Below are positions 3,614-59,373 of a stretch of DNA of 61,646 nt, in pieces. The position numbers were made by a program, and so were the translations under genes. The stretch lies in NCBI GenBank assembly GCA_017417025.1, contig JAFPZY010000051.1, positions 1 through 61,646 of the forward strand, in the 5' to 3' direction. The stretch's first letter is position 1. Each line of letters opens with the position of its first letter. This DNA is from Paludibacteraceae bacterium (lineage in GTDB: Bacteria; Bacteroidota; Bacteroidia; Bacteroidales; Paludibacteraceae). The notes beneath the pieces are model-generated. The model did no database searches. It worked only from the letters and a program-made list of their open reading frames with translations, and was not told the DNA's origin.

Positions 3614-3640
3614 GCAATAACCTAATAATAACCTAATAAT
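3614..3640. repeat. 11-bp tandem repeat, about 2.4 units
   Basis: CCTAATAATAA starts at 3621 and again at 3632, preceded by GTGCAATAAC. The same 11-mer forms the longer array at 13141-13196, and the GTGCAATAAC flank recurs at 19216 before another 11-bp array. Confidence 0.75.
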
Positions 3641-3723
3641 GGCAGCCGAATTCCGGAGACATATAAGAGAGGAGGGGAGTGTGTGTGCTTTTTGAGGAAA
3701 AGGGGGAGGTGCGTTTTGATTTA

Positions 3724-3910
3724 TTTTGAGCTGGCTTGAGTTGTTTTCTGAATTGCGTTGTGGCGTTTTTTGAGCGGGCTTGCGTTGTTTTCTGAATTGC
3801 TTTGTGGAGTTTTTTGAGCGGGCTTGGGCTGTTGTCCGGATTGCTTTGTGCTGCTTTTGGGGGAACCTCGATTTGTTTTTTGGATTGCTTTGTGGAGTTT
3901 TTTGAGAAAA
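3724..3910. repeat. 44-bp tandem repeat, about 4 units, upstream of the gmd promoter
   Basis: The marker (A/G)ATTGC(T/G)TTGTG starts at 3751, 3795, 3839 and 3883, a constant spacing of 44 bp. Units also share TTTTTTGAGCGGGCTTG. Later units diverge. No gene is supported in 3551-3972; an open frame on the minus strand is a by-product of the repeat. Confidence 0.85.
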
Positions 3911-3972
3911 AGGGTTCTAACGGTTGATAATCAGCGTGATTGCAGAAAAAGTGTATTTTCACCTTATTATGA

Positions 3973-4005
3973 TTTGCGGGAGTCGTAAAAATGTTGTATC
4001 TTTGC
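3973..4005 (+). promoter_or_regulatory. Bacteroidota promoter for gmd-fcl
   Basis: TTTG at 3973-3976, 20 nt, TATCTTTGC at 3997-4005. The transcript should start near 4010 and therefore includes the entire 22-bp repeat array before the gmd ATG at 4252. Confidence 0.8.
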
Positions 4006-4026
4006 CAGCGAATTCAACCAGGAGCA

Positions 4027-4239
4027 TTTTGAAACGGGCGGAGGAAGGTTTTGAAACGGGCGGAGTGAGGTTTAGAAACAGGCGGGGGAAGGTTTTGAAA
4101 CGGGTGGAGGAAGGTTTTGAAACGGGCGGAGGTAGATTTTGAAACAGACGGAGGAAGGTTTTGAAACGGGCGGAGTGAGGTTTAGAAACGGGCGGAGGAG
4201 GGTCTTGAAACGGGGGGAGGAAGGCTTTGAAACAGACAA
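4027..4239. repeat. 22-bp tandem repeat, about 9.7 units, in the gmd leader
   Basis: The unit TTTTGAAACGGGCGGAGGAA plus GG starts at 4027, 4049, 4071, 4093, 4115, 4137, 4159, 4181, 4203 and 4225. Variants (AGTGAGG, TTTAGAAAC) recur in the same order in units 2-3 and 7-8, which indicates a higher-order duplication. The array ends 12 nt before the gmd ATG, so it would be transcribed as a purine-rich 5' leader. Confidence 0.93.
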
Positions 4240-4251
4240 AACAGCAATATA

Positions 4252-5310
4252 ATGAAGAAGGCGTTAATCACCGGAATAACAGGACAAGACGGCAGTTTCC
4301 TTGCCGAGTTCCTGCTCGAAAAAGGCTATGAAGTACACGGCATCATCCGCCGCAGTTCCACTTTCAACACAGGCCGCATAGAACACCTCTATCTGCAGGA
4401 GTGGGTGCGTGACCAGAAGAAACCCCGTGCCGTCAATCTGCATTACGGCGACATGACCGACTCCTCGTCGCTCATCCGCATCATTGGCGAGATACAGCCC
4501 GACGAGATATACAACCTCGCGGCGCAGAGCCATGTGAAGGTCAGTTTCGATGTGCCCGAATACACGGCAGACACCGATGCAGTCGGCACCTTGCGCCTGC
4601 TGGAGGCCGTCCGCATGCTCGGCTATGAGAAGAAGACCAAAATATACCAGGCTTCCACCTCCGAGCTTTTCGGGCTCGTCCAGGAAGTTCCGCAGAAAGA
4701 GACCACTCCCTTCTATCCGCGCTCCCCGTACGGCGTAGCCAAGCAATACGGCTACTGGATAACCAAAAACTACCGCGAAGCATACGGCATGTTTGCGGTG
4801 AACGGCATTCTCTTCAACCACGAGTCGGAGCGTCGCGGGGAGAACTTCGTCACCCGCAAAATCACTCTTGCCGCCGCCGCCATAGCCAACGGCAAGCAGG
4901 ACCGCCTCTATCTGGGCAACCTCTCGGCCCTGCGCGACTGGGGGTATGCGCGTGATTATGTGGAGTGTATGTGGCTCATATTGCAGCATGACACTCCCGA
5001 AGACTTCGTAATAGCCACCGGCGAAATGCACACCGTCCGCGAGTTCTGCACACTGGCATTCCGCGAGGCGGGTATCAGTCTGCGCTGGGAGGGCGAAGGC
5101 GTGGACGAGAAAGGCATAGACGAGAAAACGGGCAAAGTGCTGGTTGAGGTCGATCCGAAGTTCTTCCGCCCGACGGAGGTCGAGCAGCTTTGCGGCGACC
5201 CCTCGAAGGCGAAGGCCCTGCTCGGCTGGAACCCGCGCAAAACATCGTTCGAGAAACTGGTGCACATAATGGTGCAGCATGATTTGGCGGCTTATGGAAA
5301 AGAGCAGTAA
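4252..5310 (+). CDS. gmd: GDP-mannose 4,6-dehydratase
   Basis: 352 residues, cytoplasmic. It converts GDP-D-mannose to GDP-4-keto-6-deoxy-D-mannose, the first committed step to GDP-L-fucose. It is an SDR-type Rossmann enzyme with N-terminal [19 protein letters not shown] (NAD(P) binding), the catalytic STSELFG with the [11 protein letters not shown]yr/Lys pair, and the family signature [16 protein letters not shown]. It overlaps fcl by 17 nt and is transcribed from the promoter at 3973 through the 22-bp repeat leader. The product feeds fucosylation of surface polysaccharides or glycoproteins. Confidence 0.97.
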
Positions 5311-58031: not shown

Positions 58032-58592
58032 ATGGAGCACAAATTGGAAAACCGCCCCTGGAAAGTTGTTCAGAGCCGCAATATACTGGACCTCGGTCCG
58101 TGGCTCAAAGTGCGGCAGGAGGAGGTGGAACTCCCCAACGGGCGGCGTATCCCGACGTGGTTCGTGTTTGAGTTTCCCGACTGGATTAACGTCATTGCCC
58201 TCACCAAAGACGGCAAGATGGTCATGGAGGACCAGTACCGCCATGCTCTCGGAGAGACTCACTACGAGATTTGTGCAGGCGTTGTGGACCCGGGCGAGAC
58301 CCCTCTTGAAGCGGCAAAACGCGAATTGAGCGAAGAAACAGGCTTTGGCGGAGGGCATTGGGAACTTTTCATGGAACTTTCGCCCAATCCCACCAACCAC
58401 AACAACCATAGCTACACCTTCCTTGCCACGGGTGTCGAGCCGCTTGAGGCGCAGCACCAGGAGCAGACGGAGGACATTCATGTCCACCTCATGGAGCCTG
58501 CCGAGGTTAAGGAAATACTGGAGCAGGGCGGTATCGTGCAGGCGTTGCACGCCGCTCCCCTCTGGAAGTTCTTCGCTACAGCGAAGGACTGA
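58032..58592 (+). CDS. NUDIX hydrolase (ADP-sugar pyrophosphatase-like)
   Basis: 186 residues. NUDIX box GVVDPGETPLEAAKREL followed by SEETGF, preceded by KMVMEDQYRHALGETHYEIC, the typical arrangement of ADP-ribose pyrophosphatases. 12 nt downstream of lpdA. After the TGA the frame continues with a run rich in Tyr-Pro/Phe-Pro codons of 9-bp period (58593-58660) before rnpB begins. Confidence 0.92.
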   Translation: MEHKLENRPWKVVQSRNILDLGPWLKVRQEEVELPNGRRIPTWFVFEFPDWINVIALTKDGKMVMEDQYRHALGETHYEICAGVVDPGETPLEAAKRELSEETGFGGGHWELFMELSPNPTNHNNHSYTFLATGVEPLEAQHQEQTEDIHVHLMEPAEVKEILEQGGIVQALHAAPLWKFFATAKD

Positions 58593-58663
58593 CAATATCC
58601 GGCATATCCGGAACTGCTTGGTTATCCGGCCTTTCCGGAGCAACCGGCACAACTGAACGAACA

Positions 58664-58998
58664 CAGCGGGGCGGCCTGTCGCCCGCTTCGGCGGGAGGAA
58701 AGTCCGGGCAACACAGAGCACCATACCGGCTAACGGCCGGCAGGCAGTAATGTTTGGTCCCTGGAACAGCGACGATTGGCGTCCTTCAGCGCAGGAGAGG
58801 CATGCAAGTGAACCGCCCTGCGTGGACGATGAAACGGCTACACTATGGGTTGCAATCCCGAGTAAACCGGCGTTTGAGGGTGGCTCGCCCGAGCCGGAGG
58901 GTAGGGAGCGTAAGAACGGCGCAGTAATGTGTCCGCCAAGATTAATGACAGGCACGCAGACCCTGTCTGCGCACAGAACCCGGCTTATAGCCCCGCTG
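58664..58998 (+). ncRNA. rnpB: RNase P RNA, type A
   Basis: 335 nt. P1 is CAGCGGGGC/GCCCCGCTG, closing the ends. The universally conserved GAGGAAAGTCCGGGC follows the GCCCGCTTCGGCGGG hairpin, and the 3' block ACAGAACCCGGCTTATAGCCCC is intact. It processes tRNA 5' ends. TTCTTTTTT follows P1, so P1 plus this run can act as the terminator. No clear promoter box lies upstream; it may be read from the lpdA transcript. Confidence 0.93.
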
Positions 58999-59003
58999 CG
59001 TTC

Positions 59004-59250
59004 TTTTTTCGTGCATTTCACCCCCAATATACTTGCATTTTTCGTGCATTTCAGCACCAATATACTTGCATTTTTCGTGCATTTCAGCACCAATAAACTT
59101 GCATTTTTCGTGCATTTCAGCACCAATATACTTGCATTTTTCGTGCATTTCAGCACCAATATACTTGCATTTTTTGTGCATTTCAGCACCAATAAACTTG
59201 CATCTTTTGTGCATTTCAGCACCAATATACTTGCATTTTTCGTGCATTTT
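59004..59250. repeat. 33-bp tandem repeat, about 7.5 units
   Basis: GTGCATTT starts at 59011, 59044, 59077, 59110, 59143, 59176, 59209 and 59242, exactly 33 bp apart. Most units contain the inverted repeat GTGC-ATTTCA-GCAC. The array begins right after the rnpB terminator and ends 13 nt before the next promoter. Open frames on both strands (11-residue repeats) follow from the period being a multiple of 3. Confidence 0.95.
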
Positions 59251-59262
59251 TGAATGATTTTT

Positions 59263-59295
59263 CTTGTACAGGTGAATTATTCTCACTACCTTTGC
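59263..59295 (+). promoter_or_regulatory. Bacteroidota promoter for the 59408 gene
   Basis: CTTG, 20 nt, TACCTTTGC; transcript start near 59300, so the 11-bp array at 59319-59373 lies in the leader. Confidence 0.78.
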
Positions 59296-59318
59296 AGCGG
59301 TTTTGCTGCATACTAACA

Positions 59319-59373
59319 TTAGTAAATCTTTAGTGATTCTTTAGTGATTCTTTAGTGATTCGTTAGTTATTAA
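59319..59373. repeat. 11-bp tandem repeat, 5 units, in a leader
   Basis: TTAGTGATTCT type units start at 59319, 59330, 59341, 59352 and 59363. The complement (AATCACTAAAG) resembles the AATCAC units at 19221 and 33111. Confidence 0.9.

Follow-up and report, generated by a model that had tools for sequence, protein, structure and literature searches.

The stretch of DNA considered here (the window) is a contig of 61,646 nucleotides (JAFPZY010000051.1) from the genome of a Paludibacteraceae bacterium (assembly GCA_017417025.1), whose intergenic regions contain tandem arrays with periods of 11 bp and its multiples. The 11-bp arrays of this genome are composed of units that belong to a handful of families, which are found again at many loci as well as in sister species. 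The units of one such family, F3, consist of a core, GTGATT, conserved across the genus, and of five variable bases; among the genomes searched, both this family and a gene family associated with it, P0001, were found only within the genus. In two relatives the arrays are located mostly upstream of promoters. Within the genome of the window, longer arrays with periods in multiples of 11 are coupled to the gaps that hold 11-bp arrays. We give a chance just short of even to the interpretation that the 11-bp arrays are helically phased operator-like sites, the register of which limits changes in length to multiples of 11 bp (11n).

The 11-bp period rule

The genome of the window comprises 2.18 Mb in 64 contigs and is 89% complete; in a comparison of MutS2, its closest named relatives were Bacteroidales/Paludibacteraceae bins. 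Periods were surveyed in a sample of 960,587 bases (44% of the genome, window included), from which contigs consisting entirely of N (L069, L084, L088, L221) were dropped, as were such loci of other families (L122, L123, L134, L135). Genes were called with a simple open reading frame (ORF) and hexamer scorer, with mainly-repeat ORFs ignored by rule. Arrays were detected with Tandem Repeats Finder (TRF), and those with periods below 5 or above 120, or under the copy and score cuts given with each count, were dropped.

With cuts of at least 2.8 copies and a score of at least 50, 91 of 170 intergenic arrays fall on a multiple of 11 (67 on 11, 15 on 22, 6 on 33, and one each on 44, 55, and 77), compared with 4 of 30 genic arrays. 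Almost none appear in resampled DNA, since 20 Markov-1 resamplings of the intergenic sequence yielded 13 arrays in total, one of them with period 11. Periods 10 and 12 are represented by 1 and 2 intergenic arrays, respectively, against the 67 of period 11. The three top lags in the intergenic autocorrelation are 22, 11, and 33 (z of 26, 25, and 12.5), with 44 in sixth and 66 in tenth place. Since period 7 (15 arrays) and a hump at periods 18–25 also occur, the rule is strong but not exclusive. Thus, the comparison of genic, intergenic, and control periods bears out the period rule that an earlier, sequence-only reading of the window had proposed.

Five same-genus genomes, with 65–80 kb sampled in each, contain 4, 1, 2, 3, and 5 intergenic 11-bp arrays. 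None were found in 319 kb from other Bacteroidales families, one was found in 242 kb of Prevotella-group loci, and none in 136 kb of Firmicutes. Among intergenic arrays of at least 2.5 copies in other Bacteroidales families, 1 of 11 has a period that is a multiple of 11. The 11-nt quantum suggested by the sequence-only reading is therefore genome-wide and intergenic and is far stronger in the genus than in other sampled stretches, but it is not confined to the genus, because 7 of 24 Prevotella-group arrays obey it as well. The 22-bp intergenic arrays of the latter group (L007, L015, L016, L021, L023) have locus-specific sequences, and 11-bp arrays are nearly absent there.

Unit families

The comparison of units covered 88 arrays of period 11 located between genes, with cuts of at least 2.2 copies and a score of 40. 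The exact unit, in any rotation or on either strand, is common to another array in 41 of the 88 (mean of 0 in ten letter shuffles); with one mismatch allowed the number rises to 58 (shuffles: mean 1, maximum 4), and with two to 73 (shuffles: mean 21). The locus-specific units expected of neutral minisatellites are thus not what these arrays contain. The description of the window's arrays as being of unrelated sequence has to be abandoned, as five of its seven 11-bp arrays belong to a single family. The accompanying view that they are independent arrays rather than copies of one element is not supported either, given that unit families recur at many loci and in sister species. Clustering resulted in seven families described by 12 words:

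F1, TACCGTCACAC: 23 arrays, including F1b
F2, TAACCGAAGGA: 14 arrays, including F2b
F3, GTGATT followed by five variable bases: 14 arrays
F4, AACACAGGATT: 7 arrays
F5, ACGGCAAAAGG: 6 arrays
F6: 6 arrays
F7: 4 arrays

Within three mismatches of a family word lie 74 of the 88 arrays, a limit also passed by 31% of shuffled units; because membership defined in this way is poorly selective, tighter counts are given, namely 61 arrays within two mismatches of one of the 12 words (shuffled 3.9%) and 48 within one (shuffled 0.3%). In a 720-kb sample, eight F2–F5 words of the 14 words tested have no exact intergenic single copy outside arrays. The F4 word is present in 184 copies in arrays, in no single intergenic copy, and twice in genes, and intergenic rotation matches outside arrays number 13 for F1b, 2 for F1y, and 1 for F6. 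The F4 double unit was found in 10 of 41 same-genus genomes, including the window's own (reversed control, 0), and the F3 double-unit pattern in none of 148 other genomes of the order.

Different arrays may also adjoin one another. In L067:110-977 (contig C6 of G000), five arrays of different sequences, all with periods of 11 or 22, occupy less than 900 bp, and in L067:110-200, L289, and L298 the 11-mer adjoining the main array is itself tandem at period 11; duplication in steps of 11 is therefore not bound to one word.

Dispersed F3 arrays in related genomes

A search for three GTGATT cores at 11-bp spacing, with one mismatch allowed, located F3 arrays in 49 of 61 same-genus genomes, the window's among them. 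The reversed-pattern control, which scores in some genomes, is not a clean null; we think that its matches come from TTAGTG recurring in TTAGTGATT arrays. While the core is kept across the genus, the five variable bases change from genome to genome, and within a genome many loci have them in common. Among the matches listed, the variable half is AATTA at 17 loci examined in G063; GTCGC, GACGC, or AACGC at many loci, as well as CTTTA, in G009; ATTAT, AGTAT, CTTAT, and AGCGG in G016; and AGTAG and ATTGG in the window's genome.

The copies resemble each other beyond the unit. At 20 loci of G009, picked for the CGC half, GTCGC comes first in 17, exactly four units are present in 18, and the last unit has a different half in all. 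The 17 loci of G063 have about 28 bp of left and about 25 bp of right flank in common, with conservation fading beyond. The layout of the element in these two genomes comprises a left flank of ~28–32 bp, 3–10 units, and a right flank of ~10–25 bp. Because unit order, unit number, and flanks are largely common to the loci, F3 arrays in the relatives look like copies of whole short elements and not like independent products of slippage. No terminal inverted repeats were seen by eye in the aligned flanks of the 17 (G063) and 20 (G009) copies, for which no formal search was made.

The sense strand to the left of F3 arrays tends to be rich in pyrimidines, as in the 22- and 44-bp arrays of the window (33191-33860 and 3724-4233) and the C/T-rich tracts of G063 (L289-L305); the pyrimidine fraction at 21–40 bp to the left is 0.77 in G063 and averages only 0.55 over the 14 F3 arrays of the window's genome. 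The F3 sense unit AGTAGGTGATT, found at 33111 and in other F3 arrays, is identical in 9 of 11 positions to what we take to be the complement of the 3' end of 16S rRNA (AGGAGGTGATC), possibly by chance. Pairing of F3 with the 16S tail was considered and set aside, since by eye the variable bases do not track the tail.

The presence of an array at a given locus varies between species. Upstream of the orthologue of the gene following the 33111 array, TRF reports no more than two short rows in G064 (86% identity), one of 11 bp with 1.9 copies and one of 10 bp with 2.1 copies, and nothing in G016 (88% identity); in neither genome do the fucosidase orthologues have an 11-bp array of at least two copies upstream. 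A comparison of the 33111 gap with these genomes as empty sites was rejected, as by eye the gap could not be aligned and the G016 gene has different upstream DNA. In turn, G012 has retained the F4 array of L097:14660 before the orthologous gene, 84 compared with 94 bp upstream.

Position relative to genes and promoters

A strict promoter was defined as TTG-N17..23-TAnnTTTG, a consensus of the Bacteroidetes type. In G009, the downstream gene is co-oriented at 16 of 19 loci, and in the stretch separating it from the array a strict promoter is directed toward the gene at 15 of the 16, with its end 82–329 bp from the array, compared with 1 of 16 on the opposite strand of the same stretches. In G063, such a promoter points toward the co-oriented gene at 7 of 10 loci (8 when relaxed, 93–297 bp), compared with 0 of 10 on the opposite strand. 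Where the left neighbour is divergent, a promoter is directed toward it in 7 of 9 cases in G009 and in 12 of 15 in G063, compared with none on the other strand. None of the co-oriented arrays of G009 (16) and G063 (10) has a strict promoter within 120 bp upstream of the array itself. A hand count of the gaps in these two genomes with both neighbours visible (n = 30) gave 16 divergent, 12 co-directional, and 2 convergent ones; the background gaps, which come from the window's genome and not from G009 or G063 (n = 253), include 51, 172, and 30, respectively.

In the window's genome, the distance from the array to the next co-oriented start ranges from 11 to 690 bp, with a median of 120 (43 arrays). 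Arrays of families F2–F5 are co-oriented with the downstream gene in 29 of 36 cases, a grouping chosen after seeing the data. The gene set for these orientation and promoter counts retains a spurious ORF across the 59005 array (58945-59253), which affects only the neighbour of the 59319 array. Five arrays of the leader type, located 22–38 bp after a promoter, are present in this sample, two of them belonging to P0001 genes. The interpretation of all arrays as 5' leaders was rejected, since TAnnTTTG is found within 100 bp upstream in 6 of 59, a number equal to that for antisense downstream.

The P0001 gene family

The gene downstream of the 59319 array is a member of a family that repeatedly follows F3 arrays:

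59408..59926, plus strand: P0001, a 172-aa protein of a paralogous family, candidate array-linked regulator

The genome of the window contains five matches to P0001, including itself, and the family is present in 48 of 61 same-genus genomes and in none of 148 other genomes of the order. No convincing match was found in Pfam, NCBIfam, or PDB, and matches in PHROG are weak only. The idea of a phage protein was dropped, since four pattern matches in viral contigs led to no confirmed relative.

The best locus from each of 30 genomes was surveyed upstream of P0001-family genes. An 11-bp array within 300 bp upstream is present at 25 of the 30 loci, and a script test found the core in 18 of these 25; among control genes, an array precedes 1 of 30 YrdC-type genes (the F2 array of the window's own genome) and 0 of 30 MutS2 genes. 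Within the window's genome, 3 of the 5 family members have such an array upstream. With free rotation, the units of P0001-family arrays reach 9.71 bits (maximum of 6.57 in 20 shuffles) with the core GTGAT(T), a figure derived from 30 arrays at 27 of 32 loci, which are related, so that their independence is overstated. The unit of the 59319 array is identical or near-identical before the closest homologues of its downstream gene. Of the 48 genomes that have the P0001 family, 43 contain arrays with GTGATT, as do 6 of the 13 that lack it (Fisher p = 0.0018, a statistic that ignores kinship and incompleteness).

The arrays of this family are often placed between the promoter motif and the start codon, that is, in the leader, a position that would suit self-repression by P0001. 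P0001 is the leading, albeit unproven, candidate for a protein that would read F3.

Arrays with periods of 22, 33, and 44 bp

Units of 13–120 bp (at least 2.5 copies) have lengths that are multiples of 11 in 23 of 55 arrays located in gaps with an 11-bp array, and in 4 of 27 located in gaps without one (p = 0.023). This test was computed without the spurious ORF; at two other thresholds p is 0.010 and 0.008, all p values being uncorrected. For 22-bp arrays alone, the numbers are 14 and 1. The possibility that 22-bp units are two diverged 11-mers was rejected, as the half-unit match is 0.305, compared with 0.309 in shuffled units (17 arrays); with no half-unit similarity, the 22-bp arrays are not decayed 11-mers. 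The 33-bp units show a slight similarity at 11 bp (0.350 compared with 0.281 in shuffled units, 11 arrays).

Proposed mechanism and alternatives

In the mechanism that we propose, each 11-bp unit would be one binding site, the 11-bp spacing would put successive sites on approximately the same face of the helix, and a protein would bind them as a cooperative row. The handful of site families would each presumably have its own regulator. In a bound row of 11-bp pitch, only changes in length by 11n would keep the register, and because such changes alone preserve it, the duplications that are kept in these gaps would be biased to 11, 22, 33, and 44 bp. We infer the binding of a protein, regulation, selection on register, and the role of P0001 from the patterns described above. 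A more elaborate version, which we regard as rather unlikely, is a genus-specific code, in which P0001-like paralogues would read the core GTGATT together with a five-base address, control their own genes through leader arrays and other, scattered genes through arrays located upstream, and assemble into a filament with a pitch of exactly 11 bp, by which gap lengths are held to 11n.

Either way, the period rule becomes a testable object: a set of dispersed phased sites, linked to an orphan gene family, in which the core is constant and the other half is specific to the genome. Should the arrays be read by a protein, they would belong to a regulatory network of gut and rumen Bacteroidales that is so far uncharted, and in the 11n lengths of adjoining, unrelated 22- and 33-bp arrays selection on register would have left an unusual mark in non-coding DNA.

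A number of observations weigh against operator-like sites. The binding protein is putative, and P0001 matches no known DNA-binding family; moreover, 6 of the 13 genomes without the P0001 family still carry GTGATT arrays. Ideal phasing on B-DNA predicts lengths of 10.5n (21, 31–32, 42), whereas the data favour 22 and 33. Arrays are gained and lost between species, and 27 of the 88 are more than two mismatches away from every family word. The orientation bias in the window's genome is weak, with 43 of 66 downstream genes co-oriented (p = 0.019); arrays of F1 and F6 taken together have none (13 of 28 co-oriented), and 7 of the 66 lie in convergent gaps. Promoter motifs are not enriched adjoining arrays in this genome. 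Of 45 arrays followed by a co-oriented gene, 21 are separated from it by a strict promoter, which is a smaller share than that of array-free gaps with such a promoter (110 of 181). Finally, the Prevotella-group intergenic arrays (at least 2.5 copies) with multiples of 11 comprise five of 22, one of 11, and one of 66 bp.

The main rival, which we nevertheless consider unlikely, is an inert interspersed repeat: the arrays would be mobile or gene-converted elements similar to those described below as MITE or REP, and the 11-bp rule would result from common descent and ordinary slippage. Such an origin accords with the unit order and number common to most of the 20 G009 loci, with the short conserved flanks, and with the scattered occurrence of arrays between genomes (before YrdC in 1 of 30, and with at least two copies before none of the fucosidase orthologues). 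It accounts poorly for a core that is kept while the variable half changes across the genus, for the retention of an array before the P0001 family, and for promoters in G009 and G063 that face away from the arrays, with hardly any facing them. Convergent gaps are also slightly rarer there (2 of 30 by hand count) than among the background gaps of the window's genome (30 of 253), inspection by eye showed no terminal inverted repeats, and the 11n of neighbouring, unrelated 22-bp arrays is left unexplained. A role in RNA, where tandem 11-nt sites in leaders would bind an RNA-binding protein or the ribosome, is distinctly less probable. The unit AGTAGGTGATT resembles the presumed complement of the 16S 3' end, P0001-family arrays often follow a promoter motif in the leader, and leader-type arrays occur in the window's genome; by contrast, the 26 co-oriented arrays of G009 and G063 have their promoters downstream and no strict one within 120 bp upstream, and no correspondence between the five variable bases and the 16S tail is seen by eye. 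An RNA-level role has been argued for TAACTGA repeats (MacGregor 2015, PMC4679880).

Ordinary intergenic minisatellites that arise through slippage, in which chance or DNA structure would favour 11, appear very improbable as an explanation: periods of 7 and 18–25 do occur, homogeneity within arrays shows turnover, and some multiples of 11 are found in Prevotella-group loci, but periods 10 and 12 are nearly missing beside 11, 11-bp arrays are absent or almost absent from the other families, Firmicutes, and Prevotella-group loci sampled, and units that recur between loci and species already disfavour this explanation. The sequence-only reading had instead put forward a dedicated process that copies or measures 11-nt steps. 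A dedicated enzyme of this kind, of which a telomerase-like reverse transcriptase such as DRT10 would be an example, is the least probable of all the explanations considered here. A fixed quantum across several unit sequences would agree with it, and DRT10 makes 9-nt tandem repeats from an RNA template (PMC12632851). No match to the reverse transcriptase family RVT_1, which can miss divergent enzymes, was found in the 89% complete genome of the window, and of 23 other same-genus genomes searched 5 have matches; with none in the window's genome and in 18 of these 23, a copying enzyme is unlikely. Array copies also have their order and flanks in common. Given that families recur between loci, that unit number and order are largely kept over the 20 G009 copies, and that RVT_1 is not matched, the spread of whole arrays together with selection on register, as in the operator interpretation, explains the data with less than a dedicated copying process does.

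Arrays of the window

The 13 arrays listed by the sequence-only reading are all present with the periods it gave, including the one at 52611, for which the ATCGGA marker confirms a spacing of exactly 22. Two of them are weak individually (3616-3640, with 2.3 copies, and 11042-11074, with 3.0 copies, 81% match, and a score of 38). Of the window's arrays, those at 3616, 13139, 19220, 33111, and 59319 belong to F3 and the one at 49066 to F5, and both families are also found elsewhere in the genome. The features are as follows:

3616..3640, minus strand: 11-bp array, F3 (sense GTTATTATTAG), 2.3 copies
3724..3906, no strand: 44-bp array, 4.2 copies; 60% matches if read as a 22-bp array
4027..4233, no strand: 22-bp array, 9.4 copies, without 11-bp half similarity
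11042..11074, plus strand: 11-bp array, 3 copies, 81% match; family F1 (TACCGTNNCAN) by reading, score 38 below the cut
13139..13199, minus strand: 11-bp array, F3 (sense GTTATTATTAG), 5.6 copies
19220..19276, minus strand: 11-bp array, F3 (sense GTGATTATTAT / GTGATTAGTAT), ~5 copies, in a convergent gap
33111..33156, minus strand: 11-bp array, F3 (sense GTGATTAGTAG), 4.2 copies, upstream of the alpha-L-fucosidase gene
33191..33860, no strand: 22-bp arrays in three adjoining blocks, next to the 33111 array
49066..49133, plus strand: 11-bp array, F5 (sense ACGGCAAAAGG), 6.2 copies, between folK and the C_GCAxxG gene
52612..52721, no strand: array with 22-bp spacing (ATCGGA marker each 22 bp); TRF consensus of 21 with indels
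59005..59249, plus strand: 33-bp array, 7.4 copies, immediately 3' of the RNase P RNA gene; lag-11 match 0.48, compared with 0.27 shuffled
59264..59294, plus strand: promoter-like pair, TTG (59264-59266), N20, and TACCTTTG (59287-59294), by the same presumed consensus
59319..59371, plus strand: 11-bp array, F3 (GTGATTCTTTA), 4.8 copies, within the leader of the gene that follows

The genes adjoining these arrays are ordinary (folK, the C_GCAxxG gene, GDP-mannose dehydratase, an AcrB-type pump, alpha-L-fucosidase, acyl-ACP thioesterase, RNase P RNA), and no common function was found among the genes flanking arrays. The statement that arrays lie outside genes holds for the most part, with the exception of an 11-bp row at 54421-54462 (GACTGTCGGCT, 3.8 copies, 84% match), which is located within a called gene on the minus strand. 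An intergenic heptamer array at 48341-48408 (TCGACTT, 9.9 copies) was absent from the earlier list. This array is degenerate; its word family, AGTCGAA/TTCGACT, is found at 10 exact tandem places with 2–4 units in the sample (L068, L073, L078, L081, L098, L100) and recalls TAACTGA repeats. Beside folK, positions 46084-48336 encode a MutS2-like protein with MutS_V and Smr domains, 56–70% identical in its full-length same-genus matches. Each 33-bp unit of 59005-59249 contains ACTTGCA, which resembles what we take to be the -33 box (TTG) of Bacteroidetes promoters, and the array may consist of multiplied promoter halves.

Comparison with known systems

A literature search, with subscription journals mostly outside its reach, returned no account of 11-bp intergenic arrays in this bacterial group among the matches listed. 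Short, non-coding repeats dispersed in intergenic DNA are familiar as miniature inverted-repeat transposable elements (MITE), repetitive extragenic palindromic sequences (REP), and bacterial interspersed mosaic elements (BIME). The arrays described here are likewise short, dispersed, and intergenic, but their body is a phased tandem array, and no inverted ends were seen by eye.

Another comparison is with the heptamer TAACTGA, which forms direct repeats in Beggiatoaceae, Cyanobacteria, and some Bacteroidetes (MacGregor 2015, PMC4679880). These are short words in tandem, mostly in two to six copies, at many intergenic loci, with related words rarely tandem, no regulator assigned, and contig ends falling in the repeats, all of which is similar here. 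They differ in being a single 7-nt word, located in the main genome mostly within several nucleotides of the start codon, whereas the unit in this genus measures 11 nt, belongs to one of several families, and combines a constant core with a half that is specific to the genome; the arrays of two relatives are mostly found upstream of promoters, and the distance to the start in the window's genome has a median of 120 bp. The 9-nt cDNA tandem repeats that DRT10 makes by reverse transcription of an RNA template (PMC12632851) are also DNA words of fixed length in tandem, but of a different length, and the window's genome has no RVT_1 match. The FopS small RNAs of Bacteroides were rejected as a counterpart, because the word "tandem" does not occur in the main text of the FopS paper.

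A scan of ten array-adjoining genes against Pfam identified a fucosidase, YrdC, a thioesterase, PspC, AraC-type and LuxR-type proteins, and others, with one gene left without a match and no ParM or ParR among them. The ParR/parC centromere of plasmid R1 is a parallel in spacing. Its 11-bp direct repeats are bound by one protein, at least two repeats are needed, and, to judge from a cited title, the promoter of the partition genes has a set of five repeats on either side (PMC9426499, PMC4949242). Tandem direct repeats of ~10–11 bp are found in both systems; parC is a plasmid centromere with a ribbon-helix-helix protein, and the arrays reported here are located at many chromosomal loci. By analogy, ParR on plasmid R1 provides a precedent for 11-bp rows that need at least two repeats, and the arrays may be pictured as landing strips for regulators, in which 11-letter words of a few families are set about one turn of DNA apart in the genomes of uncultured gut bacteria.

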